IMG/VR virus record: IMGVR_UViG_3300042402_005644
Coordinates: 1-49,580 of that record
DNA from: a virus
DNA length: 49,580 bases
Reading direction: 5' to 3' (one strand)
Shown: in pieces, positions 21,146 through 40,529 of the stretch
Layout of the letters: every line of letters starts with the position of its first letter
How positions within the stretch are numbered: the stretch's first letter is position 1
Notes under the pieces: model-generated
Seen by the model: only the letters and a program-made list of their open reading frames with translations
What the model was told of the DNA's origin: nothing
Databases searched by the model: none
Position numbers and translations under genes: made by a program

Positions 21146-21164
21146 CTGAGCCGTTTTTGATTCA

Positions 21165-21172
21165 TATAAATA
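21165..21172 (+). promoter_or_regulatory. T4-type late promoter before gp6
   Basis: An exact TATAAATA, the sequence read by gp55-containing polymerase, lies 27 bases before the gp6 ATG (21200). The start of transcription would fall near 21179, and AAGG before the ATG serves as ribosome site. It lies in the short gap after gp25. Confidence 0.82.
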
Positions 21173-21199
21173 ACAAACAACGGCATAAGGTTACAGTCC

Positions 21200-24100
21200 A
21201 TGGCAAAGACCACAAGACAAACAGCAATTTTTGGTGTTGAAGACTGGAAACAGATCTATCAAACCTATCGTGAAGCAGACTTTCAAAGCTACGACTTTGA
21301 GACTCTGCGCAAAAGTTTTGTGGATTATCTGCGTTTGTACTATCCTGAAACTTTCAATGACTACATTGAATCGTCAGAGTACATTGCATTATTGGATGTG
21401 ATTGCATTCATGGGCCAGGCCCTGGCCTTTCGCACTGATTTAAACACAAGAGAAAATTATTTAGACACAGCTGAACGTAGAGATTCAGTGGTGCGTCTGG
21501 CCAACCTTGTGAGCTACACTGCCAAACGCAACAGTGCTGCTGAAGGCCTGCTCAAAGTTTTCAATGTCACAACCACTGAAGATGTGGTAGACTACAATGG
21601 CGTAAACTTGGCCAACACAACCATCAACTGGGCTGACCCTACCAATGCTGATTGGCTGGAACAGTGGACAGCCATTATCAATGCAGCTCTGATTGACAGT
21701 CAAAAAGTTGGCCGTCCTTCAAATCGACAAAACATTTTGGGCGTAGAGACCAGTGAATACGGCATTAATCTTGTGCCTGGATTCTTGCCAGTGATTCCTT
21801 ACACTGCCACTGTAGACGGTGTCAACATGCCATTTGAAGCTGTCACTGCCACCAGTGTGGGTCGTGACTATGTGTACGAACCCAGCCCGCGAGCCAACAG
21901 TGTGTTTAACATACTGTATCGCAACGATCGTCTGGGTTTTCAATCTGCCAACAATGGCTATTTCTTTTTGTTCAAACAAGGAACTCTACAGAATCAAGAC
22001 TTCAATCTTGCTGAACGTTTGGCCAACCGCACTGTTAACATCAATATCGAAGGGGTAAACAACACAGACCGTTGGTTGTATCAGTTAGACAACGTGGGCA
22101 ACGTTGCTAGAGAGTGGATTTACACTGAAAATATCTATGCCGCGGCTGCTGAACAAACGCCTGAATTGAGGCCAATTTACTCGGTGACCAGCCGTACCAA
22201 CGATCAAATCACCATGGTGTTTGGTGATGGGGTGTTCTCTGAGATTCCAGTGGGCATCTTCCGTGCCTATGTGCGTGCATCCAATGGCCTGCAATACATT
22301 ATCAATCCTGCAGAAATGCAGAGTGTGGTGTTACCAGTGAGCTACATTGATCGCAATGGCAATCTGCAAACCATTACATTCACTTGTGGTATTACTCAGC
22401 CTGTGAGCAATGCACAGGCTCGTGAAAGCATTGATGCAATCAAACAACGTGCACCAGCTCGTTATTACACGCAGAACCGCATGGTCAACGGCGAAGATTA
22501 CAATCTTTTTCCGTTTACTTTATACAACTCTATTATCAAAAGCAAAGCACTAAATCGTGCTTCAATTGGTACCAGTCGTTACCTAGATCTGGTTGACAAC
22601 ACTGGCAAGTATTCGTCAACCAATACTTTCAGTAGCGATGGCGCTATCTGGCGCAACGAAATCCTGCCAACATTTTTGTTTACCTGGGACAATCGTAACG
22701 AGATTGCTGATGTGATCACCAATCGTGTGCAACCTGGAGTATTAGAAGCCACGTTCAAGCAATTCTACTACGCTAATTTTCCCCGAATCAATGTCAACAC
22801 TGGCAGCACTGCGCTCAGCACTTGGAATCAAAGCACTACACTGGCCAACGAAACCACAGGATTTTTTAAAAATGCCGCAGGGTCGCCAGTGATGTTGGGC
22901 ACATTCAGCAGCACAGCATTTGAATACGTAGTGCCAGGTTCGTTGATCAAATTCATTGCTCCTACCATCAACGGTCAACCCTACTACTTTGATGCCAACA
23001 ATCGTCTGCGTCCTGGATTGCCCACAAGACCAGAAGACCATTTGGAAATCTGGGCCAGTCCTACTCGCATTGTAGGTGACGGCACCAACGGCGGGCAAGG
23101 TAATTTTTCTTCTGGACAAGGTCCAGTGACGTTAAACAATTTTGTGCCCACTGGTGCTGTGGTGGACACTGTGATTCCTGTGTTAATTACCGATCTGCCT
23201 TTGAACATACAAGAGCAAATGGCTCAACAGATACTGCTGTTTAGAAATTTTGGGCTTGGCTATGACAACGATGGCTCAGTGCCCACCAGCGGTGGTGCTG
23301 GCACATGGTATGTGATTACCAGTACCAATCTGGATGCCAACGCTGATTGGAGTCAAACCAATGCTGGCAATACTTCAGGAGCCAATCTTGACGCTTCGTG
23401 GCTGATACAGTTTGTGGTATCAGACAATGTGTACACAGTGACCAGCCGTGGCCTAGCCTACTATTTTGGCTCTGTGTTACAAACTAGATTTTTCTTCTAT
23501 GGCAATGAAAAAATTTATGATAGCCGCACTGGCACCACTATTCAAGATTTTGTGAATGTACTAGCAGTCAATACCCGTCCTGACAGTAGCTTGCCATTGC
23601 CTGGAGACATTTTTACTACCATCATTGATCAACCAGTGGAAAGTGACGGCTACGTTGACGATTTTCAAGTGTTGATCAGCTATCGTGACAATGACAACGA
23701 CGGCATACCCGACAATCCTGATTTCTTTAATGAGATTGTTGCTCCGTCAGTGAACTCCAATCTCAAACTGGTGTTTTTCCAGCAAACTGTGGACTTTGAC
23801 AATCTGCAACGTTATCTGTTGGTAGAACCTGGCGTGGTAAACAGTGACTACGCCACACTGAACGACATTGAATTGGTCAAGTTTCAGTATTCGCCTGGAC
23901 AAATGTTTTATGCCTACAGTCAACAAGTGTTTTATAGATTGAACATCAGCGCCACTGGCGTGCGTTCATTGACTGCTGAATCAGGATGGATTGCAAGAAC
24001 TGGCCGTCAAGCTTTGTATTTTCAGTACAGACACAATTCGCCACTGACCAACAGAATTGACCCAGGCACTACAAACATCATTGACCTTTATGTGGTCACC

Positions 24101-24646
24101 AGAGCCTATTACACTGCATATCAAAACTGGTTGCGTGATACCACTGGCACGGTGGTACAACCTTTGCCGCCTACCATTGACGAACTCAACACTGCTTATC
24201 AACAACTGCAAGATTACAAAATGCTCAGTGACAACATTGTGTTAAACTCTGTACAATTCAAACCGTTGTTTGGTCCCAAAGCTGCCAAAACACTTCAGGC
24301 CACAATCAAAGTAATTCGTGCGCAAAATTCTGTGGCCAGCGTTAGCGAAATCAAAAGCTCTGTGTTGGCAGCTATGAATGATTATTTCAGCATTGACAAA
24401 TGGAATTTTGGCGACACGTTTTATTTCTCAGAGTTGGCTGCATACCTGCACAGATATCTAGGCAGCATCATCAGTTCTGTGGTATTGGTTCCATTGGATA
24501 CTCAAAAGAGTTTTGGAGATCTGTACGAAATTCGTGCTGAGCCCAATGAAATTTTTGCCAATGGTGCGACCATTGACAACATTGTGGTAATTGATGCATT
24601 GACCAGTACCAATTTGCGTACGGCCCCAGGCAGTGGAGTAATTTGA
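21200..24646 (+). CDS. gp6: Baseplate wedge subunit gp6
   Basis: 1148 aa. The N-terminal 130 residues carry the gp6 signature: DFETLRKSFVDYLRLYYPET, SSEYIALLDVIAFMGQALAF, RTDLNTRENYLDTAERRDS and VVRLANLVSYTAKRN. Gp6 dimers form the continuous inner ring of the baseplate. T4 gp6 is 660 aa; the extra length here lies in the middle and C-terminal parts. Residues 830-841 read DNDNDGIPDNPD, a calcium-loop type sequence. The stop overlaps the ATG of the giant gene (TGATG). A late promoter precedes the gene. Confidence 0.93.
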   Translation: MAKTTRQTAIFGVEDWKQIYQTYREADFQSYDFETLRKSFVDYLRLYYPETFNDYIESSEYIALLDVIAFMGQALAFRTDLNTRENYLDTAERRDSVVRLANLVSYTAKRNSAAEGLLKVFNVTTTEDVVDYNGVNLANTTINWADPTNADWLEQWTAIINAALIDSQKVGRPSNRQNILGVETSEYGINLVPGFLPVIPYTATVDGVNMPFEAVTATSVGRDYVYEPSPRANSVFNILYRNDRLGFQSANNGYFFLFKQGTLQNQDFNLAERLANRTVNINIEGVNNTDRWLYQLDNVGNVAREWIYTENIYAAAAEQTPELRPIYSVTSRTNDQITMVFGDGVFSEIPVGIFRAYVRASNGLQYIINPAEMQSVVLPVSYIDRNGNLQTITFTCGITQPVSNAQARESIDAIKQRAPARYYTQNRMVNGEDYNLFPFTLYNSIIKSKALNRASIGTSRYLDLVDNTGKYSSTNTFSSDGAIWRNEILPTFLFTWDNRNEIADVITNRVQPGVLEATFKQFYYANFPRINVNTGSTALSTWNQSTTLANETTGFFKNAAGSPVMLGTFSSTAFEYVVPGSLIKFIAPTINGQPYYFDANNRLRPGLPTRPEDHLEIWASPTRIVGDGTNGGQGNFSSGQGPVTLNNFVPTGAVVDTVIPVLITDLPLNIQEQMAQQILLFRNFGLGYDNDGSVPTSGGAGTWYVITSTNLDANADWSQTNAGNTSGANLDASWLIQFVVSDNVYTVTSRGLAYYFGSVLQTRFFFYGNEKIYDSRTGTTIQDFVNVLAVNTRPDSSLPLPGDIFTTIIDQPVESDGYVDDFQVLISYRDNDNDGIPDNPDFFNEIVAPSVNSNLKLVFFQQTVDFDNLQRYLLVEPGVVNSDYATLNDIELVKFQYSPGQMFYAYSQQVFYRLNISATGVRSLTAESGWIARTGRQALYFQYRHNSPLTNRIDPGTTNIIDLYVVTRAYYTAYQNWLRDTTGTVVQPLPPTIDELNTAYQQLQDYKMLSDNIVLNSVQFKPLFGPKAAKTLQATIKVIRAQNSVASVSEIKSSVLAAMNDYFSIDKWNFGDTFYFSELAAYLHRYLGSIISSVVLVPLDTQKSFGDLYEIRAEPNEIFANGATIDNIVVIDALTSTNLRTAPGSGVI
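23687..23722 (+). other. Calcium-loop-like motif in gp6
   Basis: Codons 830-841 of gp6 give DNDNDGIPDNPD, an Asp/Asn-Gly pattern like the calcium loops of thrombospondin type 3 repeats. It suggests that divalent ions could stabilise the wedge in seawater. Only one copy is present. Confidence 0.55.
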
Positions 24647-27600
24647 TGGCAAAAATTCGTAGTGTAGATTTTCTTCCTGAAATTTTTCAAACTGATGCCA
24701 ACAAGCAATTTCTGGCCGCTACCCTGGACCAGTTGATCCAAGAACCCAGCTTTAAAAAGACTCAAGGCTTTATTGGACGCACGGTGGGCCCAGGCGTCAA
24801 TCCCAATGAAAAGTATGTGATTGAGCCAGACAAAACTCGTGTCGACTACCAGTTAGAACCAGGTATTATCAGCCTTGATCCTGACGACACTGGCATGATA
24901 AAAAATGCCATAACTTATCCTGGCATCAATAGTGCGCTGGAATTTCAAGGTGCACCAAGCAACCAACCTGATCGTAGATACGTTAGCCAATACTATACTT
25001 GGGATCCATTTGTGGATTTTGATAGTTTTGTTAACTTCAGTCAGTACTATTGGTTGGCCAACGGGCCTGATGTGGTAGATGTATCAGCAACAGAAATTCC
25101 TGCCAGCCAAAATTTTGTAGTGACCAGAGCCAACGGTGTTTACACTTTCAGCGGAACCACAGGCAACAATCCCACACTGAGTTTGCTGCGCGGCGGCAAC
25201 TACAGTTTTCAGGTAGCACAAAATGCCGTAGAAACCATCAACTTTAGAGTTGAAAATCAAGGCACAGGTGCTTACCTAATAGATCAACAGCCAAATCCAA
25301 CGCTGACTCTGATAAGAGGCAATACCTATGTGTTTTCTCTTAACCGAATAGCTGCTTTTCCTTTTTGGATCAAAACAGTACCTTCCACAGGAACCACTGA
25401 TCAATACAACAATGGAGTTCAGCGCAACGGAGCCATTGACGGCGTTGTTACTTTTACTGTGCCACAAGATGCTCCAAACGTTCTGTACTATTCATGTCAA
25501 ACTCAGAGTCTCATGAATGGCACAATCAATGTCGTTGACGGCACACCAGGCACTGGATCACAATTCTGGATTCAAACTGATCCTGGCATCAACGGCAAGA
25601 ATCCAACCACACCCAACATCAGCTCTCGTGAAGTATTGGGAGTAGTCAACAACGGCACTGACCTCGGCACAGTGACCTTCAATGTGCCTTTGCAAAATGC
25701 ACAAGATTTTTATTACAATTTGCCTTTGTTGGACGGCGGCACAGTAGATTTGATCACTGATTTGAAATTCAACCAAATCAACAACATCAATCTTGCAGAG
25801 TTTTTAGAACAATACGGCGGCATTGACGGCATTACGTCTTTGAATGGGCGAACGTTGGTGTTTACCAACCGAGACCCAGGAGTTGAGTTTGGTGGATGGG
25901 TCGACGAATCTGTGTTTGATCCCATGGTCGACAATGACACCCAAGAAGGATTGCCTGGCACATATGACAGTCAACCTTTTGCATTGTCTACTCCAGTGCC
26001 TGTAGACCATTACTACAATGTGTGGCGTATTAGCTATGTGGACAACGGATCTGGTGTATATTTGTCTCTAGCCAGTGTGCAGACCATCAATGTTCTTGAC
26101 AAGTTTTCTATCTTGTATGGCGAACAATACAGCAACACACAATGGTACAAACAAGAGTCAGGATTTTTGTCACAGATACCATTGCTCACAGCAGGGCTAA
26201 ACAACCTGTGGTATCAAGACAGCACTGATCCAGAAATTTTTGGATTGATCAAACTATTAGATCCAGTAGACAATCAAATAATTGAAATCAATGATATCTT
26301 AGGTAAAAAAACTTACACCAGTCCCAATGGCATAGTGTTTACCAATGGTCTCAAAGTTCGGTTTACTGGTTCAGTGATTCCAAGAAGCTATGCCAGTGGG
26401 TCTACCACAGTGTCGTGCATCAGCACCGCAGCTGGATTGAATTTGATCAGCTGTGACACAACTCAGAATCTTATTCCTGGCCAACAAATTGAATTTTTTG
26501 GCACAGTGTTTGGTGGTTTGTCTGCTGACACCACTTACTATGTACGCACTGTGTTCAGCAGCACACAGTTTACAGTCTCCACAGTGAAAGATGGTCCTGC
26601 TGTTTTGTTGACTTCGGCGTTTGGTTCAATGACTGCTGTGGCTAGCCAGGATCCTCAGTATTATGTCAGCGGAGTGGGTTCAGCAATCAAGTTATTGCCA
26701 GTGTCAGATTACATCACACCTGAAGTCTACGACACTGAAGCCACTTTGTTGGGCAATATCGATTATTTGACCATTGACAGAGACAGTGCCAGTCTCAATG
26801 CCTGGAGTCGCAGCAATCGTTGGTTCCATATTGATGTACTCACAGCTACTAGCCAATACAACGAAACACCGCTGGTGTTAAACAACGAACTGCGAGGCAA
26901 ACGTCCAATCTTGCAATTCCGCGGTGGCCTACGACTGTATGACATGGGCACTGCCAGCAAAGCTCCTATAAACGTCATTGACTTTACAGAAACAGATGCA
27001 TTGAGCAACATTGAAGGCAGCACTGGATACACGACCAACAACTATACTTTTGTTGACGGCAGCAGAGTGGTGTTTGCTGCCGACGAAGATCCCAATGTTC
27101 GTAACAAAATTTACGTGGTCAATTTTATATCACCTGACTCTTCAATTTTGACTGCTGCTGCAGATTTGCAGTTTGGGTTGACTTATACTATTGTGAGTCT
27201 TGGTAACACTGACTGGAATGCGGTAGCTGGTACAACAGGTGTCACTTATGCAGTGGGCAACAGTATCACTGTGGATCAGTCTGGGTCTGGCACCGGCACT
27301 GCAAACTTTTCTCAACCCATTATCAATCTCACAGTGGCTGGTGATGGCATAGTTGAAATTGACAACTGTGCAGTGTGTGTCAGCGGCAATCAAGTTGGCA
27401 AGAGTTTTTGGTATGATGGTATAAATTGGTTGGCTGCACAACAGAAGCTGTCTGTGCAACAGGCACCACTGTTTGATGTGTTTGACAATCAAGGTATCAG
27501 TTTGTCCAACCGCACCCGCTACCCTAGTTCTACGTTTTTTGGTACCAAATTGTTGAGTTATGCACAAGGTACAGGTCCTGCTGATCCTGTGCTCAATCTT

Positions 27601-30600
27601 GACTTAAAATACCTTACAATCAACAATGTAGGCGACATTGTTTTTGACAACAACCTCTATGCTGATACATTTGTGTATGTGGTAGACAATGTCAGTGTGA
27701 CAAAACCAATCAGCAATGGTTATGTATTTGAATACTCGACTCGCTCTGATTACCAGCGTCAGTTAGGATGGCAAACTGCTGTAGTGCCCAGTGTGATGCG
27801 TCAGCAATTCAAATTTGTCTATGCTGGTGCACCACTGAAACTGGATGTAGCAGTGTTGCCCGATACTACCACTGTGATTCCAAGTGTACAAGTTTTTGTA
27901 GGATCACGTTTTCAAGACCCCAACACCTACACAGTGACCACAACTGACACAACCACGGTGATTCAATTCACCACACCACCAGTGATTGGAGAAGTAATTG
28001 AAGTAGCTGTGCTCAGTGATCAGCAAAGTCAAGTAGCATTTTATCAAGTGCCTGTTAATTTAGAAAAAAATCCGCTGAACAACAATAGTGATTTTTTTAC
28101 ACTGGGAACTATTCGCACACATTACGAAACTATTTGTCAAAATTTAACCACATTGACTGGTTCTATCAACGGTGCCAACAACACTAGAGATCTAGGCAAT
28201 ATCATACCCTACGGTGAAAATATTCTGCAACAAAGTTCTCCTTTGACTCTGGCTGGATACTTCATGCGGTCAGAGCAGTACAATATTTTTGCTGCATTGG
28301 AATTCAACAGCAGAGAATACCAAAAGTTCAAAGGTCAAATGTTGGAAGCAGTGACCAGGCAACTAATTCAAGAACAGCCTATCAGTGTTGTATTGGACAC
28401 AGCCATTGCTGACATTACACTGGGCAAGATTGACACCACTCCATTTTACTGGAGTGATATGTTGCCAGCAACGTCGTTGTTTTCAACTTTGACTTACACT
28501 GTGAGTTTCATCACCACAAACTCATTTGATACCAATCAGGTTTACAGTTACACTTCTGCCAATTATCAAGGCATGAACGTGTATCTAAACGATGTCATAC
28601 TCACACGCGGAGTTGACTATGAAGTTGCCACCAACGGACCTCGTATCACTGTGCTGGTGGACTTAACTGTTGGCGATGTCATTACCATCAATGAGTACAC
28701 AGAAACATACGGTACCTTTGTGCCCAACACCCCAACCAAGTTGGGATGTTATCCAGCTTGGCGACCAAGTATTCTAGAAGTCAAAACCAGCACTGGAGTG
28801 CAAATGGTGATACAAGGCCACGATGGCAGTCAAACACCGTTGTTTGGCGACATCCGGGACGATGTGCTACTGGAATTTGAAACTAGAATCTACAACAATC
28901 TCAAATTGGATGGCAATCCTGTGCCTCTAACCATCACTGATGTGTTGCCAGGCCAGTTCAGAAACACAGGATACAGTTACTCAGAAATCAATCAAATTTT
29001 AAGTACCAATCTGTTGGCCTATGTGGGCTATAACAAATTGAACTACAACAGTCAAAACTTTGACAACAACAACGCCTTTACATGGAATTATAGTGCATCC
29101 ACCAACCGACTGAACAACGAAAACTTGCTGGGTGCCTGGCGCGGCATTTATAGATATTTCTACGACACCCAACAACCACAAGAAACTCCGTGGGAAATGT
29201 TGGGATTTACAATCAAGCCTGAATGGTGGGATATTACCTATGGCGTAGGGCCTTATACTGCTGAAAATTTAGTTTTGTGGGATGACATCGCTGCTGGTTA
29301 CATTGCAGACCCTGTCAATCCAAGATTTGATTACAAATATGCTCGCCCAGCATCGTTTGGGTCATCGCAGGAACCTCCACGAGGCGGTGCCTGGGAAACC
29401 AGTCAGTGGGGCACCGGGCCATATCCACAACTTCAGCCAATAATTCCCACTGATTCTCTAGGTCAACTTTTGCCACCCATTAACACTGTGGTTGGTACTT
29501 TTGATGATCAACAAGTGCAAAAAAATTGGATCGCTGGTGACGGCGGCCCAGTTGAAGCATCGTGGTGGAACAGCAGTGATTATCCTTTTGCGGTGATGCG
29601 ATTATTGGCATTGACTAGAACAGCACAGTTCTTTGCATTGTTTGCTGATAGAGATTTGTATCGTTTTAGAGACGAATTTGGTCAGTACCTTTACAACGAC
29701 CGTTATCGTTTGAATGCCAATGACATTACAGTCTACGGCGACGGGGTCAGTAAAGCCAGCTACATCAACTGGATTGTTGACTTTAACCGTGTGTCAGGAC
29801 AAAACAGCACCCAAGCCTTAGAAGCTGACTTGTCAAACATTGATGTCAGGCTGTGTTACAGAATGGCTTCGTTCTCTGATAAACAGTACATCAAGCTGTA
29901 CACAGAAAAGTCCAGCCCCAACAGTACCAATACTTCGCTGTTGATACCTGATAACAGTTATGATCTCTTATTGTACAAAAATCAACCATTTGATCGCAGT
30001 GTGTACAGTTCTGTGGTAATTCAGGTTGTTGAAGATGGGTGGGCAGTTTATGGTTATTCAACTGCCAGACCTTACTTTTCAATTTTGAACAGTGTACCTG
30101 TGGGACAGTTTCAGACATTTTCAGTGGCTGGGACCACTATTCAAGTGCCCACTGCTTACACTCAAACAGTCACTCAAGTGCCCTACGGATTTACGTTTAC
30201 AACACAATCTGCAGTGGCTGACTTTTTGTTAAGCTACGGACAATTGCTGACTCAACAAGGATTCAACTTTGACGATCTAACCAATGGATATGTGTTAGAT
30301 TGGAAACAAATGGTCTATGAATTTTTGTACTGGACTCAGCAAGGATGGGGTGTGGGGTCGCTGATAAATCTCAACCCGCTGGCTTCCAAGACCACTGTGA
30401 TCAAGCCTCAGGCTGTGGTTGACGATATCAAAGCACAGACAGCCGAACACTATCTATTGGACCAAAACAAACAAGACATGCCAGTGCGCAACTTAAACAT
30501 TGTGCGTTTAGGTAACTCTTTTACCATTGAACCTTTGACCAATCAAAGTTTGAGTTTTGTAGACATCAGATACACCAGCTACGAAAGCATGATCGTGTTG

Positions 30601-33600
30601 AACAATGTGAGCTTGTTTGGCGATCTTATCTATGAACCCACTACAGGAGCCCGTCAAAGTCGCTTGTTTTTGGTTGCAGCCACATCAACCAACTGGGACG
30701 GCAGTGTCAACGCCCCTGGATTTATTCTAAATCAAGATAACATTGAAGAATGGTCAGGAGTCAAGACTTATACCAAAGGCACCATTGTCAAATACAAAGG
30801 ATCATACTGGAGCGCAGCCACTATTGTACAGCCCAGTACCACTTTCAATTACAGTGACTGGAATCAAAGTGACTATACACTGATTCAGCAAGGCCTGTTG
30901 CCTAACTTGGCCAACAAAGCTGATCAGCTGATCAATAGCTATAACATCAATTCAGCCAATCTAGAAGTTGACAATGACTTGTTGAGCTATGGATTAATTG
31001 GATATCGTCCGAGACAGTACCTCACAGCGTTGAATCTTGATGACGTCAGCCAACTAAATGTGTACCGACAGTTTATTGGAACCAAAGGCACACTTCAAAG
31101 TGTTGACTTGTTGGGTCGAGCTGACCTCAATAAAGAAGTGGCCGACTACACTGTATATGAAAACTGGGCACTACAACGCAGTGTCTATGGTGCCAATGCC
31201 AATCGTAGTTTTATCGATCTTAGACTCAATGCCAGCTTGCTAGACAGTAATCCTTCAGTGGTGCAAGTCATTGAGCCAGGACAACTTACAGATGCAGATC
31301 AACCTATTTTGATCAATGATGTATGGAACAGCAGTTTTCCAGTGACCACCACTGATATTTTGCCTACCACTACTACATCTATCACAGACGTTGCTTTGCC
31401 CACTGCTGGTTATGTGAATCTTGACGACGCAGATATCACTGTGTTTGATATCAATGACCCCACTAGCCTCAGTGCAAATTTGAATTCTATCATAGTAGGC
31501 ACCAGCATATGGGTGGCCAAAGTCAATGATTATGACTGGAATATCTATCGTGTGCAGCCAGTGAACAGCACCATTGGCCATGTTTGCGACAATCTCAACA
31601 ACACAAGCTTGGTCAAATTCAATGGACAGCATGGTCTAAAAGCTGGCGACAAATTGATCATAAGATTTTTTGATGAAGAAGTCAACGGAATCTATCAAGT
31701 GCTCACAGTGCCAAATATCACCACAGTGACTATAGCATTTAGTTTCACAGGCGATCGCACAGTGGTCAATGGCACAGGTATTGGATTTTCTTTGCAAACC
31801 ATGCGTGTGGCCCAAGCCAGCGATGTTTTGTCATTGCCTTATTCCAAACAAATACTGCCAGGGTCTGAAGTTTGGGTTGATAACAACGGCCAGGATCAAT
31901 GGCAAGTGCTTAAGAAACAGAATCCATTTGCAAATCGCACTACATTGTCTCCAGTGATTCTTGATGCCGGCGAACAGTATGGCGCTAGTGTGGCACAAGC
32001 TCTCAATAGACTTGCATTGTTTGTTGGCAGTCCACGTTATGGCTTTGCCACAGGCACAGCCGTTGGCGGCATCTACGTATATCTAAAAAACGATTCAGAT
32101 CAATACACCCCAATCAGCCCATTGTTGGGCTCTGATGCTATATTGACTTTGGCAACCACTGGTGTGCGTGGCTATGGCAACGCTGTGGACATTGGCAATC
32201 AAACATGGGCAGTGGGTGGCGCCAGTGCCAGTCTTGGACCAGCAGCAGCAGGAGCGCCAGCCAACAATGGTTATGCTGTAGTATCTTGGCGAAACCCTCA
32301 AGGTGGCGCCTTGGGCACCAATCCTTGGCAGCAAACGCAGGTGTTGATATTGCCGGGTACAACCAATACCACCACACCAGGTGCTGGCGAATTTGGTTAC
32401 AGTGTGGTCATGAGCACTGATGAACGTTGGATGTATGTGTCTGCCCCAGGATTGAACTATGTTTACGCATATGGTCAGATTCCTTGGCAAGATCAGAATG
32501 TTACATTCATTGCTAATGGCACTACGAGTTCTGTAGACATTTCGGCAGATATTCAAATCAACAACGCCAATCAAATCACTGTTACACAAGACGGTAGAGT
32601 GTTGACACTGACCACAGATTACACTGTGGGAGGTGGTTTTAACACTGTGACTTTTGTCACACCGCCGGCTGCTGGTGAAAAAGTTGTGATATTTAGAAAT
32701 TACATCAAAGGTTACACTGCTGCAGGCACAACATACAATGTCAGTAATTTTATCTACACAGTGAATGCTGCGTCAGTGAGCGCCAAACTTGATTCTTTTT
32801 ATGTCACAGTAGATGGCGTACATCAAAGGCCAGTCATTGACTACACTTTCAGTGCAGGTAATTTAGTGTTCTACAGTGCTCCTACAGCAGGAGCGTCTGT
32901 TGTGATCACCGCGCAAAATTATTACACATTGGCTGGCTCAATCACAGCAGCAGCATTAGGCGCCACCGACAGATTTGGACACAGTATTTCTTGCTCTACT
33001 GATGGTAGACAACTCATTGTTGGCTGTCGAAACGCCACAGTTAACGGACAAACTGAAGCCGGCAGTGTTTACGTATTTGACCGCAATGTGCAAAAATTTA
33101 TTGTGACCAATGCTTCCGTAGACACTTACACAGTGAGAGGCACCGTGACTGCACCTGTTTCAGTGTTGTTAAACAATGTATTTTTGACCAACGAAGTTGA
33201 TGGCATTGTTGGTGCTCCAGGCACTTTCTCTGTGAGCGGTAATAACATCACTCTCAATGACAGCCTTTCAGTGGGAGATGTTATCGAAGTTGAAATCAAT
33301 CAATTTGTACAGCAGCAACAAATCTCGCAACACACAGTGGCAGAATTTAGCAATTATGGTCAAGCAGTTGATCTGTGTCCATACAATTGCAGCTTGTATG
33401 TGGGCGCACCACAATCCAGCGTTGGCGTTTGGAAAGGTGGCATAGTTGAACGCACTGTGAACGTGGCCAGAAGCTATGGGTCTATCACTGCCACGGTGGC
33501 CAATCCTGTGCTGACAGTGGGAGATACTATTCGGATTAACAATGTGGATTGTGTGGTACCTGCGGCAACTAGCACTGTGACCAGTCTGCAAGGCCTGGCC

Positions 33601-36600
33601 AACGCTATCACTGCCAATGCTCCCAACGCCACTGCCACAGTGAGCACAGACGGATACCTAACCATTAACACTACCAATTTGGCCGCAGCAGCCACAGGCA
33701 ATTTGCTTCAAATCGCACCTGGTAGTACAATAACCACAACTGGCATCTATGCTCAATTGGGATTCAAAGCTTTTGAATTTACTCAAACTATTCAAAGTCC
33801 CATACCCACAGAGTTGTCAGCGTTTGGCGCTAGTCTGGCCATCAACGACACCGCACTGAATCTTGTGGTTGGTTCACCGCAAGGCAGTTTGTATTTGCCC
33901 AATACATTTGACTATGACTCTGTTACGCAGAAAGTCAAAACTACTTTTGATGGTAACTCTACTACATTCTTCAGTCCAGTGACTCAAAGTGGGGTAGTCT
34001 ATACCTATGATTATCTGCCCAGCTCATTAAACACATTGGCCACGCCAGGTAATTTTGTATTTGGACAACAAGTATCGACCAATGTGGTCAGTGCTTTGGA
34101 TCAATATGGCACTGCTGTGAGTTACAGTTCTGGGGTGTTAGTGGCCACTGCACCTGGCGAAGACTTTGGAGATAGCACTGCGGCCTATGGTGCTGCATTG
34201 ATCTTTGAAAACCCCACACAAGGACCAGCTTGGTCAGTTCAGTATCAACAACGCCCAGTGGTCGATGTTAGATTACTGACCAGTGCATACATTTACGATT
34301 CTATTACATCAGCCAAAACAGAATTCTTTGACTTTTTCAATCCGCTGCAAGGCAAAGTGCTGGGTGTAGCACAACAAAATCTTGATTACATTGGCGCTGT
34401 TGATCCTGCTGGTTACAACATTGGTGCAGTCAACAACAGAGGCACGGCTTGGGGTCAACAACACATTGGAGAAATGTGGTGGGACATCAGCACTGTGCGA
34501 TTTATTGATCCCAATCAAGACAACATCACTTACGCTAGCCGTCGCTGGGGACAAGTATTCCCTGGATCAAGAGTAGATGTCTATCAATGGGTAGGCAGTG
34601 CTGTACCACCTGCATCATATGCTGGCCCAGGGGTTCCTTACAATGTCAACAGTTATGTGATCAATACCAGTTTGACTGAAGAAGGAATTTTTGCTACAGA
34701 ATATTTCTTTTGGGTCAGAGGTATTACTGAAACCAGCACTGCTCGGGGCAAAACACTAAGCGCTGCCACAGTGGCCAGTTATATCCAAGATCCAAGAGCC
34801 AGCGGCATTGCGTACATCGCACCAATTTCTTCTAGCACTGTGGCCATTTACAACAGCAATGAATATATTGTGGCCGCAGACAGTATATTGAGTATTGAAT
34901 TTGATCAAGAATACACTTCGGCCAATGTGCATGCTGAATATGAATTGATAGCTGAAGGCAGACCTGATGCATTCTTGAGCGACAATCTTTATCGCAAACT
35001 GCAAGACAGTTTTTGCGGAGTGGATACCAATGGAGCCAAAGTTCCTGATATCAACTTACCGCCAGCTCAACGGTATGGTATTCAATTCCGTCCAAGACAG
35101 AGCATGTTTGTAAACAGATTCTTGGCCTTGAAGAATTATATTCAGCGAGTAAACTCAGTATTCAAACTGTATCCGATATCAGAAAATCGCAGTTTTAATC
35201 TGTTGAACAGTGCTGATCCTTTGCCGCCAGAAACATCAATTGTGCCAGCAGGAGAGTTTCAAATTGGTGAAACATACACCATTGTCACTGTGGGAACCAC
35301 GGATTTTGTGGCCATTGGTGCGGCCAGTAACACTGTGGGTGTGAGCTTTGTGGCCACTGGTCCAGGCTCAGGCAATGGTGCTGCATCGGTGGTAAATTGG
35401 AATCTGCAAGTGGCCAACCTGGAAATTTTAAGTTATCAAAATCTCCACACAGTGCCCGTGGGCTACAAATACCTTGTCACAGTTGACAGCAGCAATAGAG
35501 GTTTATGGACCATTTACACAGTGAAAGCCGGACCTGTATTGGGCGAAAGACAGTTGCAACTTACCAAAGTACAAAACTACAACACCAAAGATTATTGGAG
35601 CTACATCAACTGGTACATGCCAGGCTACAACAGTAGTTCAAAAATCATTGCTGAAGTGCCAAACTTTGCAGCTCTGGCCACTATCACAGTCACTGCTGGA
35701 TCTTCGGTCAAAGTCACGGCCAATGCTCAAGGCAAATTTGAAATATACTTGAGAACTGATACCAGGTGGGAAAGAGTGGGACTTCAAGATGGTACCATTG
35801 AAATTTCCGCAGATATTTACGATTACGAACAAGGCAAATTTGGCTTTGACGTTGAAGTATTTGATGCACAGTATTTTGACCAAGAACCAGTGATTGAAAC
35901 TAGAAAAATCATACAGGCCATCAACCAGGAGTTGTTGATAGGCGATTTGTTGATTGAGCGCAATCGCGCTTTGATTTTGATGTTCAATTTTATTCTTACT
36001 GAACTGCAAGCACCAGAATGGTTGGTCAAAACCAGTTTGATAGACGTTGATCACAAAATTCGTGAACTAGTACCATTCCAAAATTACATCAGAGACAATC
36101 AAGAATTTGTTAGCGATTATATTCAAGAAGTCAAACCTTATCATGTGCAAGTCAAAGAATTTAATCTCACTTACAACGGGCAAGATTTGTTCCTTGGTAG
36201 TCTAACTGATTTTGATGTGCCTGCGTTTTACAACACTGATCTAGAAGTACCACAATTTGTGAGTCCTGTGTTATTGCCTTACACTCAGAGCACAGCCCAA
36301 AGCAGCAACAACCTCAGCAATACACCAGCCAACGCTACTATTTGGACTCAATGGCCATACAGTCAATGGTTTACAAACTATACCATGTTTGTGGATACAA
36401 TCAGCGTGATTGACCCAGGAGCTGGCTATGTGATAGCCCCTGTTGTAACAATTCAGGCTGCACCAGGCGATACTACAGGTGCAGGTGCTGAAGCTGTGGC
36501 CACAATCAATGCTCAAGGCAGAGTCAGCAGTATAACTGTTACTGATCCTGGATCAGGATACACATTGACTCCATTGATTATCATTGACGGCGGCAATCCT

Positions 36601-39600
36601 GGCGGGGCCACTGCCTATGCTCGTTTGGAAAACAGTTTGGTACGCAGTTTCCGCACAGTAATCAAATACGATCGTTATCAGTACAATACATCTGTGCAGA
36701 CCTGGAACGAAGACGGCACTTATGACAACGGCACATTGGTTAGATACGACAACAGAGTATGGCAAGCCAACAGCGCCGACGGCAGCAGTGCTGTAATTGG
36801 ACCCACCTTCAACATAGAAGATTGGACATTGGTTGATATAGCCACACTCAGTGGTGTAAACCGCACCATGGGTTTCTATACACCCACTGTAAATGAACCA
36901 GGCCTTGATCTGGCATTGTTGATAGATGGCACAAGGTATCCAGGTGTGCAAGTTTGGGGTGATTACTTCTTGGGTAGTTCTGATGTGCTGACCATTACAT
37001 GCACTGCTACCAGCTCTTTGAACAATGCAATCACTTGCAATCAAACTTTGCGACTGGAAGCAGGGTCGCCTATTAGATTTTACGGATCAGTGTTTGGTGG
37101 TGTGGTAGCAGGACAAGTTTACTTTGTGAGTGAAGTTATCAGCGGCACAGAGTTCTCAATCAGCACTGTGTTCAACGGACTCAATGTTGATCTAACCACT
37201 GCCACAGGCACCATGGTTGGCTATATCACTGAGCCATTGGATGCTGTGTATGCCAGCAGTTTTACTGATCAATTCTTGGGCACTAGACCCACAGATATCA
37301 ATGTATCTGGCGGAGAATTTATTGGACCCTATGAGGGTCATGCTCCTGAAGAATTGGTAAATGGATCAGAATACGACACCATGGACTTCAGGGTCTATAC
37401 TGCACCGGGCGGTGACTGGACCAATCGTGGACACGGCTTCCAAATTGGCACTGTAAATTATGTGTACGACCCTGTAATTTCTACCTACAGCTGGAGCAAT
37501 GTGGTAGATATTCCCACTGAAATCATTGTTTACAATTTGACCACTGGCCTAGGCCTAACACCTGGCATAGATTATACCGTGGATTGGGCAGCAGAGACCA
37601 TCAGTGTTGTTTCAGGGGTGACAGTAAACAATGTCATTGGTATATCTGTTTATGAAATTGGCGGCGGCAACCAGTTGTATCGTGACACTTACACTGGTCA
37701 GCAAGCCAATGACCCAGTGATTGTGCCGATCAATGCTGATTTGATCAACAGTGTGCCAACTTTTGTCAATGGGCAATATTTGTCAGGTGTGACATGGTCA
37801 GCTTATGTCGATTCTGTGCCCTGGGATATCAGCAGCAGTTATGCCAAACAAGATATTGTAGAAGACTCGGGCACCTATTACAGAGCATTGAGATCTGTGC
37901 CACCAGGCATTTTGTTGACCAATCTAACCTATTGGTCGGTTTATGTGCCTGCCACACAAACACTGGTCAACTTTAACACTGTGTTTGATCCAGCTGACCG
38001 GATCACTTTGGCAGTATTGGCCACAGAAATTCCTCAGTATAGCTGGAGTACTCCACAGACTCAGTACATTGTTGCTTCTCAACAACAAGCCCTGAATCAA
38101 ACACTGCCATTGGACAACAGCCTACAGGGCACAAACCCAGCCAACCTCATTGTGACTCGCAATGGTGTGAGACTGCGGCCGGCTGAAGGCATTGAATGGA
38201 TTGGTGACGATAGCTCTGTGAGTTTTGGTTTGCCTCAACGTGGTGGATACAGCCAGGCATTGATCAACTCTGGCACTGATATCTCTGTGTGGCTAAATGG
38301 ACAATTGCAGGTTCAAAACTTTGGAGCCATAACAGGTGACTATTATGTAACCAACTACGATGGATCCAACACGCCAGGCATGCAAGTGGTATTCTTTGAT
38401 ACACCACCCGCAGGGTCAAGAATCTTGATATCAGTGAGTACCCTGTCAGATTATTTTGTCAATGTGACCAATAATTCGTTGCAGATCACACCAGTGTTTA
38501 ATGCTGGTGACATTTTCAGTATCACCACATTCAATGACACTGCACAGCAAAACATTGTGACTTTGCTGTTCCAAGGGCCAGTGACCACAGGTATTACATT
38601 GAACGAACCATTTGACAGCACACCATTTGATGCTGCAACAGTCAATAACACACCTGGTAGCTTTGACTACACTGTGGGATCAGCCACTGAAGTAAACGAC
38701 TTTGATTTGGGACGCACAGGCGTAGAGGCCAGCAGGTTGTGGGTAACCTTGAACGGATACCGACTGACTGAAGGTCAAGACTACACTGTGGAAGGTCAGT
38801 ATTTGATTTTGTCAACTGGCGTGATATCCAATGCTCAAACTTTGGTAGTGACAGAATTTGCTGAAAGTGTGGTGCCTGAAGTCATGGAATTTAGAATATT
38901 CCAAGACATGCGAGGTATTCAGACCACTTACAGAATGACACCTAGAACCAGCACAGTTCTGGTACAACCTTTGAGTCAGACTGCTGACATTATCTATGTT
39001 GAGGATGCTGGCAATCTCAGTGCACCAAACTTACAAAACGGATTCTTTGGAGTGATAACCATCAATGGCGAACGTATTTTGTACAGAGATATTGACGTCA
39101 TTGCCAACACTGTGTCTGGACTACAACGTGGCACAGCAGGTACAGCAGCAGATTCACATCCTGATGGTGCCATAGTGTATGACATGGGCATTGGCAATGC
39201 CATGTGGCAGCAAGACCAAAACTATGTGTTACAGACCACCACGGTAGCTAACGGCTCAACCACAGTGTTCACTGCCAGCAACATTGAGATACTGAGTGGT
39301 CAAACTACAGATTTCTTTGCCCGCAGCGTGGAAGTGTATGTGGCAGGCACACAAGCTAGACCTGGCGCCAGCGTGACCACAGTGGCCAATGGAGACTCAG
39401 TGACCATTGGATACATGGGCAATACAGACTGGTATGCCATGGGCTTGCCCACTACAGTGTTTCCTGCCATTGGTGTTGTGTTTACAGCCACAGGTGCTGG
39501 CACAGGCACAGGGTTGGTCAGCGACACAGCAGCCAGCTATTACTATGCTGTTACTGGCAACACTCCAGCTCAAGTTACCTTCTTTACTGCTGACAACTTG

Positions 39601-39744
39601 CCGGCTCCTGCTGATGGAGTTGAAGTTACTATTCTGCAACGTCGTGGTGTAACTTGGTATGCACCTGGTGTGGGCACACCCAGTAACGGTGAGCCTTTGC
39701 AGCTGACTGATACTACACAAGCACTGTTTTTACAAGGTAAATAA
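24646..39744 (+). CDS. Giant virion structural protein (5032 aa)
   Basis: A single open frame of 5032 codons from ATG 24646 (overlapping the gp6 stop). The N-terminus (DFLPEIFQTDANKQFLAATL, then DQLIQEPSFKKTQGFIGRTV) is the kind that starts very large tail proteins in marine phages, as far as I recall. Parts in order: two cupredoxin-like units (about 170-300); a YTIVSLGNTDW module (842) that recurs near 3540 and 4910; an FGGL-type beta module (590-665) that recurs at 4117-4190; Trp-rich structural domains; carbohydrate-binding-like repeats near 2036, 4020 and 4393; seven FG-GAP-type blades (2445-3160) with inserted beta-sandwich modules; paired GxGY repeats (about 3920-3985). It follows gp6 where T4 has gp7-gp11, so it may replace several wedge, pin or fibre proteins. 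No protease motif was recognised. Confidence 0.85.
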   Translation: MAKIRSVDFLPEIFQTDANKQFLAATLDQLIQEPSFKKTQGFIGRTVGPGVNPNEKYVIEPDKTRVDYQLEPGIISLDPDDTGMIKNAITYPGINSALEFQGAPSNQPDRRYVSQYYTWDPFVDFDSFVNFSQYYWLANGPDVVDVSATEIPASQNFVVTRANGVYTFSGTTGNNPTLSLLRGGNYSFQVAQNAVETINFRVENQGTGAYLIDQQPNPTLTLIRGNTYVFSLNRIAAFPFWIKTVPSTGTTDQYNNGVQRNGAIDGVVTFTVPQDAPNVLYYSCQTQSLMNGTINVVDGTPGTGSQFWIQTDPGINGKNPTTPNISSREVLGVVNNGTDLGTVTFNVPLQNAQDFYYNLPLLDGGTVDLITDLKFNQINNINLAEFLEQYGGIDGITSLNGRTLVFTNRDPGVEFGGWVDESVFDPMVDNDTQEGLPGTYDSQPFALSTPVPVDHYYNVWRISYVDNGSGVYLSLASVQTINVLDKFSILYGEQYSNTQWYKQESGFLSQIPLLTAGLNNLWYQDSTDPEIFGLIKLLDPVDNQIIEINDILGKKTYTSPNGIVFTNGLKVRFTGSVIPRSYASGSTTVSCISTAAGLNLISCDTTQNLIPGQQIEFFGTVFGGLSADTTYYVRTVFSSTQFTVSTVKDGPAVLLTSAFGSMTAVASQDPQYYVSGVGSAIKLLPVSDYITPEVYDTEATLLGNIDYLTIDRDSASLNAWSRSNRWFHIDVLTATSQYNETPLVLNNELRGKRPILQFRGGLRLYDMGTASKAPINVIDFTETDALSNIEGSTGYTTNNYTFVDGSRVVFAADEDPNVRNKIYVVNFISPDSSILTAAADLQFGLTYTIVSLGNTDWNAVAGTTGVTYAVGNSITVDQSGSGTGTANFSQPIINLTVAGDGIVEIDNCAVCVSGNQVGKSFWYDGINWLAAQQKLSVQQAPLFDVFDNQGISLSNRTRYPSSTFFGTKLLSYAQGTGPADPVLNLDLKYLTINNVGDIVFDNNLYADTFVYVVDNVSVTKPISNGYVFEYSTRSDYQRQLGWQTAVVPSVMRQQFKFVYAGAPLKLDVAVLPDTTTVIPSVQVFVGSRFQDPNTYTVTTTDTTTVIQFTTPPVIGEVIEVAVLSDQQSQVAFYQVPVNLEKNPLNNNSDFFTLGTIRTHYETICQNLTTLTGSINGANNTRDLGNIIPYGENILQQSSPLTLAGYFMRSEQYNIFAALEFNSREYQKFKGQMLEAVTRQLIQEQPISVVLDTAIADITLGKIDTTPFYWSDMLPATSLFSTLTYTVSFITTNSFDTNQVYSYTSANYQGMNVYLNDVILTRGVDYEVATNGPRITVLVDLTVGDVITINEYTETYGTFVPNTPTKLGCYPAWRPSILEVKTSTGVQMVIQGHDGSQTPLFGDIRDDVLLEFETRIYNNLKLDGNPVPLTITDVLPGQFRNTGYSYSEINQILSTNLLAYVGYNKLNYNSQNFDNNNAFTWNYSASTNRLNNENLLGAWRGIYRYFYDTQQPQETPWEMLGFTIKPEWWDITYGVGPYTAENLVLWDDIAAGYIADPVNPRFDYKYARPASFGSSQEPPRGGAWETSQWGTGPYPQLQPIIPTDSLGQLLPPINTVVGTFDDQQVQKNWIAGDGGPVEASWWNSSDYPFAVMRLLALTRTAQFFALFADRDLYRFRDEFGQYLYNDRYRLNANDITVYGDGVSKASYINWIVDFNRVSGQNSTQALEADLSNIDVRLCYRMASFSDKQYIKLYTEKSSPNSTNTSLLIPDNSYDLLLYKNQPFDRSVYSSVVIQVVEDGWAVYGYSTARPYFSILNSVPVGQFQTFSVAGTTIQVPTAYTQTVTQVPYGFTFTTQSAVADFLLSYGQLLTQQGFNFDDLTNGYVLDWKQMVYEFLYWTQQGWGVGSLINLNPLASKTTVIKPQAVVDDIKAQTAEHYLLDQNKQDMPVRNLNIVRLGNSFTIEPLTNQSLSFVDIRYTSYESMIVLNNVSLFGDLIYEPTTGARQSRLFLVAATSTNWDGSVNAPGFILNQDNIEEWSGVKTYTKGTIVKYKGSYWSAATIVQPSTTFNYSDWNQSDYTLIQQGLLPNLANKADQLINSYNINSANLEVDNDLLSYGLIGYRPRQYLTALNLDDVSQLNVYRQFIGTKGTLQSVDLLGRADLNKEVADYTVYENWALQRSVYGANANRSFIDLRLNASLLDSNPSVVQVIEPGQLTDADQPILINDVWNSSFPVTTTDILPTTTTSITDVALPTAGYVNLDDADITVFDINDPTSLSANLNSIIVGTSIWVAKVNDYDWNIYRVQPVNSTIGHVCDNLNNTSLVKFNGQHGLKAGDKLIIRFFDEEVNGIYQVLTVPNITTVTIAFSFTGDRTVVNGTGIGFSLQTMRVAQASDVLSLPYSKQILPGSEVWVDNNGQDQWQVLKKQNPFANRTTLSPVILDAGEQYGASVAQALNRLALFVGSPRYGFATGTAVGGIYVYLKNDSDQYTPISPLLGSDAILTLATTGVRGYGNAVDIGNQTWAVGGASASLGPAAAGAPANNGYAVVSWRNPQGGALGTNPWQQTQVLILPGTTNTTTPGAGEFGYSVVMSTDERWMYVSAPGLNYVYAYGQIPWQDQNVTFIANGTTSSVDISADIQINNANQITVTQDGRVLTLTTDYTVGGGFNTVTFVTPPAAGEKVVIFRNYIKGYTAAGTTYNVSNFIYTVNAASVSAKLDSFYVTVDGVHQRPVIDYTFSAGNLVFYSAPTAGASVVITAQNYYTLAGSITAAALGATDRFGHSISCSTDGRQLIVGCRNATVNGQTEAGSVYVFDRNVQKFIVTNASVDTYTVRGTVTAPVSVLLNNVFLTNEVDGIVGAPGTFSVSGNNITLNDSLSVGDVIEVEINQFVQQQQISQHTVAEFSNYGQAVDLCPYNCSLYVGAPQSSVGVWKGGIVERTVNVARSYGSITATVANPVLTVGDTIRINNVDCVVPAATSTVTSLQGLANAITANAPNATATVSTDGYLTINTTNLAAAATGNLLQIAPGSTITTTGIYAQLGFKAFEFTQTIQSPIPTELSAFGASLAINDTALNLVVGSPQGSLYLPNTFDYDSVTQKVKTTFDGNSTTFFSPVTQSGVVYTYDYLPSSLNTLATPGNFVFGQQVSTNVVSALDQYGTAVSYSSGVLVATAPGEDFGDSTAAYGAALIFENPTQGPAWSVQYQQRPVVDVRLLTSAYIYDSITSAKTEFFDFFNPLQGKVLGVAQQNLDYIGAVDPAGYNIGAVNNRGTAWGQQHIGEMWWDISTVRFIDPNQDNITYASRRWGQVFPGSRVDVYQWVGSAVPPASYAGPGVPYNVNSYVINTSLTEEGIFATEYFFWVRGITETSTARGKTLSAATVASYIQDPRASGIAYIAPISSSTVAIYNSNEYIVAADSILSIEFDQEYTSANVHAEYELIAEGRPDAFLSDNLYRKLQDSFCGVDTNGAKVPDINLPPAQRYGIQFRPRQSMFVNRFLALKNYIQRVNSVFKLYPISENRSFNLLNSADPLPPETSIVPAGEFQIGETYTIVTVGTTDFVAIGAASNTVGVSFVATGPGSGNGAASVVNWNLQVANLEILSYQNLHTVPVGYKYLVTVDSSNRGLWTIYTVKAGPVLGERQLQLTKVQNYNTKDYWSYINWYMPGYNSSSKIIAEVPNFAALATITVTAGSSVKVTANAQGKFEIYLRTDTRWERVGLQDGTIEISADIYDYEQGKFGFDVEVFDAQYFDQEPVIETRKIIQAINQELLIGDLLIERNRALILMFNFILTELQAPEWLVKTSLIDVDHKIRELVPFQNYIRDNQEFVSDYIQEVKPYHVQVKEFNLTYNGQDLFLGSLTDFDVPAFYNTDLEVPQFVSPVLLPYTQSTAQSSNNLSNTPANATIWTQWPYSQWFTNYTMFVDTISVIDPGAGYVIAPVVTIQAAPGDTTGAGAEAVATINAQGRVSSITVTDPGSGYTLTPLIIIDGGNPGGATAYARLENSLVRSFRTVIKYDRYQYNTSVQTWNEDGTYDNGTLVRYDNRVWQANSADGSSAVIGPTFNIEDWTLVDIATLSGVNRTMGFYTPTVNEPGLDLALLIDGTRYPGVQVWGDYFLGSSDVLTITCTATSSLNNAITCNQTLRLEAGSPIRFYGSVFGGVVAGQVYFVSEVISGTEFSISTVFNGLNVDLTTATGTMVGYITEPLDAVYASSFTDQFLGTRPTDINVSGGEFIGPYEGHAPEELVNGSEYDTMDFRVYTAPGGDWTNRGHGFQIGTVNYVYDPVISTYSWSNVVDIPTEIIVYNLTTGLGLTPGIDYTVDWAAETISVVSGVTVNNVIGISVYEIGGGNQLYRDTYTGQQANDPVIVPINADLINSVPTFVNGQYLSGVTWSAYVDSVPWDISSSYAKQDIVEDSGTYYRALRSVPPGILLTNLTYWSVYVPATQTLVNFNTVFDPADRITLAVLATEIPQYSWSTPQTQYIVASQQQALNQTLPLDNSLQGTNPANLIVTRNGVRLRPAEGIEWIGDDSSVSFGLPQRGGYSQALINSGTDISVWLNGQLQVQNFGAITGDYYVTNYDGSNTPGMQVVFFDTPPAGSRILISVSTLSDYFVNVTNNSLQITPVFNAGDIFSITTFNDTAQQNIVTLLFQGPVTTGITLNEPFDSTPFDAATVNNTPGSFDYTVGSATEVNDFDLGRTGVEASRLWVTLNGYRLTEGQDYTVEGQYLILSTGVISNAQTLVVTEFAESVVPEVMEFRIFQDMRGIQTTYRMTPRTSTVLVQPLSQTADIIYVEDAGNLSAPNLQNGFFGVITINGERILYRDIDVIANTVSGLQRGTAGTAADSHPDGAIVYDMGIGNAMWQQDQNYVLQTTTVANGSTTVFTASNIEILSGQTTDFFARSVEVYVAGTQARPGASVTTVANGDSVTIGYMGNTDWYAMGLPTTVFPAIGVVFTATGAGTGTGLVSDTAASYYYAVTGNTPAQVTFFTADNLPAPADGVEVTILQRRGVTWYAPGVGTPSNGEPLQLTDTTQALFLQGK
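25168..25536 (+). other. Cupredoxin-like domain pair in the giant protein
   Basis: NPTLSLLRGGNYSFQV (from residue 175) and NPTLTLIRGNTYVFSL (from 217) begin two related strands. The second continues to FPFWIKT and YYSCQTQSLMNGTINV, the closing strand of a plastocyanin-like fold. The Cys (284) and Met (290) positions of a copper site are kept. The two His positions are Phe 238 and Gln 287, so copper binding is doubtful. Confidence 0.6.
31978..34200 (+). other. Seven FG-GAP-type blades in the giant protein
   Basis: Seven (Y/F)Gx(S/A)(V/I/L) motifs, most followed by a strand ending in VG(S/A)P or similar, occur at residues 2445, 2510, 2583, 2777, 2904, 3060 and 3154 (for example YGASVAQALNRLALFVGSP and FGASLAINDTALNLVVGSP). 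Seven such repeats fit one integrin-type beta-propeller. Spacings vary from 65 to 194 residues because other beta modules are inserted between blades. Confidence 0.6.
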
Positions 39745-39750
39745 TACATC

Positions 39751-39906
39751 ATGTTGAATTCACAGCCAAAGCAACCCGAAACACTCAAAGTTGAGCCCAA
39801 AACTCAACCTCGCAGACCCAACGAACAAGGATCCTTTGATGTACAAGCCCATGTGCGTATTTTTGATCCACAAACCAAGCAAGTCTATGTGGAGGGCAGA
39901 GCATGA
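39751..39906 (+). CDS. Small protein (51 aa) related to the N-terminus of the next gene
   Basis: ATG 39751 to TGA 39904-39906 gives 51 residues: a Pro/Lys/Gln-rich start, then GSFDVQAHVRIFDPQTKQVY. The second half aligns with the N-terminus of the downstream 208-aa protein (KIEGYVKIFDPNSGEVL). Its stop overlaps the next ATG (ATGA), so translation is likely coupled. It could be a real small virion protein or a remnant of a duplicated gene. There is no strong ribosome site, and the gene sits 6 bases after the giant gene. Confidence 0.6.
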   Translation: MLNSQPKQPETLKVEPKTQPRRPNEQGSFDVQAHVRIFDPQTKQVYVEGRA

Positions 39907-40529
39907 TTATTCAACCAGGACTGGCCAAAATTGAAGGCTATGTCAAAATTTTTGACCCTAATTCTGGGGAAGTGTTGATAGATAAAAAAAATGCCATACA
40001 TTACGAAAACATTTCTATTGCCATGGCACAGAGTCTCAGCAATCGTCTAGATCCCAATGGCAGTAGATTGGGTGTGATTTATGAAATGGCCTTTGGCAAC
40101 GGCGGCAGTTCTGTGGATCCCACAGGCGTGATCACTTATTTGCCACCCAACACACTGGGCCAAAACGCCGACCTCTACAACGAAACTTATGCCAAAGTTG
40201 TGGATGATAATTCCGCAGCTGACACAGACCCAATCAACAACAAAATGACTGTGCTTCACACCGCAGGCACAGTGTACACAGATATTTTGGTCACATGCTT
40301 GCTGGACTACGGCGAACCCCCAGGCCAGCAGGTGTTTGACAACAGCACCAATTTTAACGGTGAATTTGTGTTTGACGAATTGGGATTAAAAACATGGAAC
40401 GGCAGTGCATCTGATCTGCGCTTGATCACACATGTAATATTTCACCCAGTGCAAAAAAGTTTGAATCGACAAATACAGATTGATTACACACTGCGTATCC
40501 AAACGCTGAGCAACATCAATGCTGTATAA
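39903..40529 (+). CDS. Virion structural protein (208 aa)
   Basis: No enzyme motif. Features are VKIFDPNSGEVLIDKKNAIH, EMAFGNGGSSVDPTG, a TYAKVVDDNSA segment, and FDELGLKTW followed by ITHVIFHPVQKSLNRQIQID. The set matches a conserved tail-associated protein of marine T4-like phages as I remember it, without a T4 counterpart. It overlaps the 51-aa gene by 4 bases. The next gene's late promoter overlaps its stop codon. Confidence 0.75.
   Translation: MIIQPGLAKIEGYVKIFDPNSGEVLIDKKNAIHYENISIAMAQSLSNRLDPNGSRLGVIYEMAFGNGGSSVDPTGVITYLPPNTLGQNADLYNETYAKVVDDNSAADTDPINNKMTVLHTAGTVYTDILVTCLLDYGEPPGQQVFDNSTNFNGEFVFDELGLKTWNGSASDLRLITHVIFHPVQKSLNRQIQIDYTLRIQTLSNINAV

Follow-up and report, generated by a model that had tools for sequence, protein, structure and literature searches.

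A 5032-residue virion protein in the probable gp7 slot of the baseplate wedge of a RaK2/PA5oct-type jumbo phage

What does a single 15-kb gene lying directly behind gp6 in a viral tail gene cluster encode, and does its product stand in for one T4 wedge protein or for several? The stretch of DNA analysed here (the window) is a complete virus record of 49,580 bases (49.6 kb), i.e. a fragment of a larger genome. A sequence-only reading of it had described an unbroken frame immediately after gp6 and had proposed that the product replaces gp7 to gp11. The frame was borne out: the ORF at 24643-39744 (+) is open throughout, with no internal stops, and encodes 5032 aa plus a stop when counted from the ATG at 24646. 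The gp6 stop overlaps this start codon (...TTTGATGGC...), and GGAG stands seven bases 5′ of the ATG. Loci fetched from IMG/VR contained 89 complete homologues with 70 distinct lengths (median of all 89, 4911 aa), and 85 of them are single intact frames of 4208-5341 aa. The other four are short; two of these (L037 and L120) look like contig errors, since the remainder of the protein is encoded in a different frame. Because 85 of 89 complete homologues are intact in this size range, the gene is genuine and its length typical; chance is excluded and the frame is no assembly accident. At 110 Da per residue, each chain has a mass of about 0.55 MDa. The family is common in metagenomes, with at least 600 match rows in one scan.

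The gene order gp25-gp6-giant in the window (20771-39744, Table 1) is that of gp25-gp6-gp7 in cyanophages, and in T4, where the order is gp6-gp7-gp8, the place directly after gp6 is that of gp7. The gp6 assignment comes from profile matches (phrog_10646, E 9e-276; phrog_219, E 2e-24; hhalign to T4 gp6, 98.6%). This gp6 is nearly twice as long as that of T4 and the match between them is mainly N-terminal, so the presumed wedge partner is enlarged as well. We found gp6 directly upstream of the giant gene in 232 of 233 loci and gp25 present in 231, and the giant also directly follows gp6 in RaK2, CBB, PA5oct and Atu_ph07. The exception is SCTP-2, where the giant homologue does not adjoin gp6, which sits about 90 kb off. 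A 3096-aa protein (L005 8609-17899) precedes the SCTP-2 homologue; of all isolates examined, only this one shows the linkage clearly broken. Two long virion proteins that flank gp53 in the window are candidates for unrecognised wedge or fibre proteins. The PA5oct gene at the position of the 583-aa protein is annotated 'T4-like gp10', a label that profile comparison did not reproduce.

Table 1. Features of the window, in window positions; aa numbers refer to the giant protein unless a protein length is given.
Feature	Position	Strand	Remarks
SegE-type GIY-YIG homing endonuclease	1527-1961	-	PF19835 E 7e-34
Radical SAM protein	1971-3074	-	
Radical SAM protein	5324-6526	-	
Virion protein, 1302 aa	9858-13766	+	phrog_12050
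gp53-like wedge subunit	13766-14068	+	phrog_7145; hhalign to T4 gp53 89%
Virion protein, 1149 aa	14072-17521	+	phrog_11190
gp25 (sheath initiator)	20771-21145	+	PF04965 E 8e-7, below its cut-off; phrog_43
gp6 wedge protein, 1148 aa	21200-24646	+	T4 gp6: 660 aa
Giant virion protein, 5032 aa	24646-39744	+	PHROG 10938; proposed gp7-slot wedge protein
Conserved N-terminal block, aa 1-150	24646-25095	+	SVDFLPEIFQTDANKQFLAATLDQL...; shared with PA5oct, Atu_ph07, SCTP-2, CBB, RaK2
Cupredoxin/YHYH-like accessory domain, aa 196-298	25231-25539	+	phrog_677 positions 304-410
Best-conserved family block, aa 1118-2030	27997-30735	+	mostly confident AlphaFold model
CBM5/12 (chitin-binding type) fold, aa 2031-2079	30736-30882	+	Pfam PF02839 weak; VIA Z 8.1
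gp7-like segment with invariant KG, aa 2084-2200	30895-31245	+	KGT codons 31084-31092; hhalign 74-78%
FG-GAP type repeats, aa 2445-3200	31978-34245	+	PF14312 E 4e-6
Second conserved block, aa 3187-3860	34204-36225	+	EVKPYHVQ motif at end
Second CBM5/12-like stretch, aa 4020-4045	36703-36780	+	PF02839 E 0.002, below cut-off
Beta domain (ITINGERILY...), aa 4767-4849	38944-39192	+	hhalign 93.5%
208-aa protein	39903-40529	+	phrog_11259; after giant in 75 of 79 loci
583-aa fibre/adaptor-like protein	40561-42312	+	
Gene with weak GDSL lipase/acylhydrolase similarity	46477-47334	+	E 0.0055, below cut-off
Radical SAM protein	48265-49578	+	

The protein belongs to an already catalogued family without an assigned role. 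Both of its halves match PHROG 10938 (E 3e-191 for the first, 8e-64 for the second), most of the protein is covered, and sister giants match it too. This entry (3324 positions) is labelled 'virion structural protein' and filed under 'head and packaging', which is probably a misplacement, since the genes around the family form a baseplate cluster. Its members include RaK2 ORF070, CBB_236, PA5oct gp355 and Atu_ph07 gp180, and phAPEC6 gp245 can be added by position and size. The central block was matched by 60 isolate records, among them RaK2, CBB, GAP32, 121Q, PA5oct, Atu_ph07 and SCTP-2; these are jumbo phages of 287-490 kb, except for two short partial records. Like the window protein, PHROG 10938 members are encoded after gp6, and they share its N-terminus and the blocks at aa 1118-2250 and 3187-3860. 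The window protein differs from them in its FG-GAP region, its C-terminal beta domains and its greater length (5032 versus 3326-4449 aa; RaK2 3326, CBB 3340, Vibrio 2.275.O 3771, SCTP-2 3807, PA5oct 3857 and Atu_ph07 4449 aa among the isolate homologues). Several members have been detected in virions by mass spectrometry: CBB_236 with 21 peptides and 7.7% coverage (PMC5259590), and phAPEC6 gp245 (381.9 kDa), listed right after the baseplate wedge protein gp244, with 17 peptides (PMC7247149). An ESI-MS/MS note in its sequence record marks PA5oct gp355 as a virion protein. By analogy with these three relatives, the window protein is expected to be a virion protein as well. None of the members is given a wedge role in the records examined.

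Gene position carries most of the case for gp7, and the sequence signal is suggestive, not proof. In cyanophages, gp25 and gp6 are likewise followed by a giant gene (phrog_2885), with products of 4307 aa in P-TIM68 (gp086), 6395 aa in S-RIM8, 7022 aa in S-MbCM6 and 7312 aa in P-SSM4, the last annotated gp7. The first 300 residues of the P-TIM68 protein match the core of T4 gp7 around an FYSxKG motif (96%, E 4e-9), and the cyanophage protein is therefore a real gp7 relative. We then compared overlapping segments of the giant-family alignment with T4-type and cyanophage gp7 profiles by hhalign. Most segments stayed below 4%, as did all of them against T4-type gp7 alone. Apart from the beta domain near the C-terminus (93.5% against the cyanophage profile), an accessory or mobile domain that cyanophage gp7 carries as an insertion close to its own N-terminus, gp7-like matches were confined to aa 2118-2178, which aligned with the N-terminus of cyanophage gp7, KGT on KGT (74-78%). 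With deeper alignments the match dropped to 59% against cyanophage gp7 and 25% against a joint T4/cyanophage profile, yet its score of 27.5 was not equalled in 200 column shuffles (best shuffle, 20.2); it spans ~55 residues and is too weak to pass a database search. The conserved FIxxKGT near aa 2147 aligns with the sole gp7 segment detectable between T4 and cyanophages, and its KG pair does not vary in CBB, RaK2, PA5oct, Atu_ph07 and SCTP-2 or among 79 aligned relatives with identities as low as 42%.

The T4 gp7 profile (phrog_964) had no match in the relatives of the giant. It reaches P-SSM4 gp7 solely through 28 residues around the KGT motif, and it thus defines the T4 branch and not all gp7. 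When the KGT region of 26 members was scanned against Pfam and PHROG, only phrog_10938 matched convincingly; the Foldseek and VIA lists for the model that includes this region contained no gp7 chain. The best local alignment placed residues 8-32 of the giant on the T4 gp7 helical region 12-38, without significance; aa 1-150 are a candidate core-bundle helix. As a bridge we tried P2 gpI, the P2 counterpart of gp7. It scored 0.3% against the same gp7 profile, lower than the giant, and failed in this role because the P2 relatives used are nearly identical.

The protein resembles the cyanophage giants in its position, its huge length, the inserts that separate the N-terminal block from the KGT segment and the accessory beta domains. 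It differs from them in that the likeness is limited to the KGT segment and mobile accessory domains; moreover, KGT lies at about aa 200-700 in cyanophage gp7, and cyanophages keep a separate gp9 and more wedge genes downstream. With T4 gp7 (1032 aa) it shares the place directly after gp6 and a putative KGT-type segment, whereas there is no significant whole-profile match, domains V and VI and the first 640 aa of T4 gp7 were not found in it, and T4 encodes gp8-gp11 separately. Wide variation in size is known among gp7 orthologues, XM1 gp17 having 242 aa (PMC10457771). We consider it probable that the gene comes from a jumbo myovirus with RaK2/CBB, PA5oct and Atu_ph07 as relatives, and that its product is a greatly enlarged baseplate-wedge protein in the gp7 slot.

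We next looked at the domains of the giant and at its predicted structure. AlphaFold models of aa 1121-2320 (mean pLDDT 75, pTM 0.67) and aa 3187-3900 (mean pLDDT 78, pTM 0.54) both show mixed alpha/beta domains. Neither had a Foldseek match in the PDB with E < 0.001. Large-scale fold matches of aa 1118-2030 were confined to its own family, and no credible PDB match was seen for the second block. Only the CBM5/12 fold stood above background among the PDB matches of the two blocks (rmsd 1.3 over 45 residues against a phage Milano baseplate chain in VIA); this fold also occurs in a tail fibre chain of phage 7-7-1. The KGT region was modelled with pLDDT 30-50, a result that would fit a region able to fold only together with gp6. 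In BFVD, the significant matches with informative names came from Atu_ph07 or uncultured phages, consistent with these belonging to the giant family, and several others were unnamed. The fold of the central block is matched by a 750-aa viral protein (A0A2Z5HGI1; TM 0.72 by target length), which may represent the family in a shortened or split version. The FG-GAP repeats probably form a beta-propeller with inserts. The domain at aa 196-298, a putative cupredoxin fold, is common to the C-terminal part of cyanophage gp9 and to cyanophage tail fibres. Matches to the head closure and hub profiles phrog_460 and phrog_1922 at aa 3913-4021 fall on GYxxxP repeats and on the second CBM region; we read them as mobile accessory domains and set them aside. 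The description of a single huge virion protein that combines modules of other tail proteins thus holds, with FG-GAP, CBM5/12, cupredoxin-like and other beta domains.

Does the chain also do the work of gp8, gp10 and gp11? No gene for gp7, gp8, gp9, gp10 or gp11 was found in the window, in agreement with the sequence-only reading, which had seen none before the fibre genes. Since the window is merely a 49.6-kb fragment, absence was tested in ten longer relatives of 287-490 kb. There the gp7, gp8 and gp11 profiles gave nothing convincing, and the gp6 profile, our positive control, was found in nine. This pattern, together with a chain five times the length of T4 gp7 and rich in beta domains, would suit a fused or functionally consolidated outer wedge that performs the tasks of gp7, gp8, gp10 and gp11 together. 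Against this, no segment of the giant resembled gp8-gp11, either by profile comparison (every segment at or below 11%) or in the fold lists. Phage-Gp8 (PF09215) had no Pfam or hhalign match in the giant and none in the ten relatives; T4_gp9_10_N (PF07880) and GP11 (PF08677) likewise had no match in the giant by either method. Elsewhere in the relatives' genomes, gp9/gp10-like N-termini appeared in six of ten, all below cut-off, and GP11 had one sub-threshold match in one. Further virion proteins are encoded after the giant and in the interval from gp53 to gp5. The phrog_677 match falls on the C-terminal domain of the gp9 family, whereas T4 gp9 corresponds to the N-terminal part of that family (3-112), and the link to gp9 is a shared accessory domain only. 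Residues 1-299 reached 100% against cyanophage gp9 in hhalign, but we discarded this result as circular: giant-family sequences had entered the gp9 alignment, for which the coverage limit was set low. Profiles this distant may fail without the protein being absent, and the missing gp8 and gp11 fit loss or unrelated substitutes as well as fusion. Segment-wise structure prediction with Foldseek, suggested earlier as a check, yielded folded blocks and did not bring up gp7, gp8, gp10 or gp11 in the PDB or VIA lists, an absence that is not evidence of different folds. The proposed replacement of gp7-gp11 thus keeps its gp7 part, through gene position and a weak but above-chance KGT match, and is not supported for gp8-gp11. 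We regard a consolidated wedge as unlikely, and equally doubtful is its strongest form, a ~0.55 MDa chain per wedge that replaces gp7, gp8, gp10 and gp11 covalently and supplies everything outside gp6, gp25 and gp53. If it were true, propeller and carbohydrate-binding folds would be used within the wedge itself.

About as improbable is a role for the giant as a fibre, whisker or outer-ring protein that simply happens to follow gp6, the true gp7 being another, unrecognised virion gene such as that of the 1149-aa or 1302-aa protein. The missing T4 gp7 profile match and the fibre-type accessory domains would allow this, and CBB and phAPEC6 bear whiskers of unassigned origin (PMC5259590, PMC7247149). 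It is opposed by the near-perfect linkage to gp6, the KGT signal and the well-folded models of the conserved core; the 1149-aa and 1302-aa proteins have no gp7 match, although their profiles are thin (one sequence for the 1302-aa protein). Of the two roles foreseen earlier, much of the outer baseplate or a very long fibre, part of the outer wedge is very probable, and a very long fibre seems unlikely for the conserved part because the AlphaFold models show globular alpha/beta domains. T4-like phages process head proteins, and a polypeptide cut at maturation would leave separate gp7-, gp8- or gp10-like products in the mature virion. The low peptide coverage in relatives, such as that of CBB, leaves room for such cleavage, but mass spectrometry of phAPEC6 gives a single product, its size taken from the gene model and not from gel position (PMC7247149), and we think cleavage very improbable.

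With a greatly enlarged gp7 as the preferred reading, we propose that a short gp7-like core, the N-terminal helix and the KGT segment, would bind the gp6 dimer in the manner of T4 gp7 and phage XM1 gp17. The outer baseplate would be built from the very large insertions, which are rich in beta structure and comprise FG-GAP repeats, CBM5/12 folds, a cupredoxin-like domain and others; fibres might dock onto them. With six copies in each virion, ~3.3 MDa would be added; this copy number, like gp6 binding, outer location and fibre docking, is a prediction. The trend towards a giant gp7 was already known, and what is likely new here is the functional placement of the jumbo-phage family in the wedge. 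One of the longest genes in these phages, from a family that occurs in isolates of several jumbo-phage groups and in metagenomes, thereby gains a likely role. By this comparison, gp7 seems to have grown several-fold both in T4-type cyanophages and in RaK2/PA5oct-type jumbo phages, and its position would be one at which baseplates expand.

Several other genes of the window were recorded (Table 1). Three radical SAM proteins, two of them with SPASM domains, flank the tail cluster and stand among SbcC-like and metallophosphoesterase genes; radical SAM genes also lie downstream of the giant in Atu_ph07. A homing endonuclease gene is present near one end, and the gene with GDSL similarity is otherwise without assignment.
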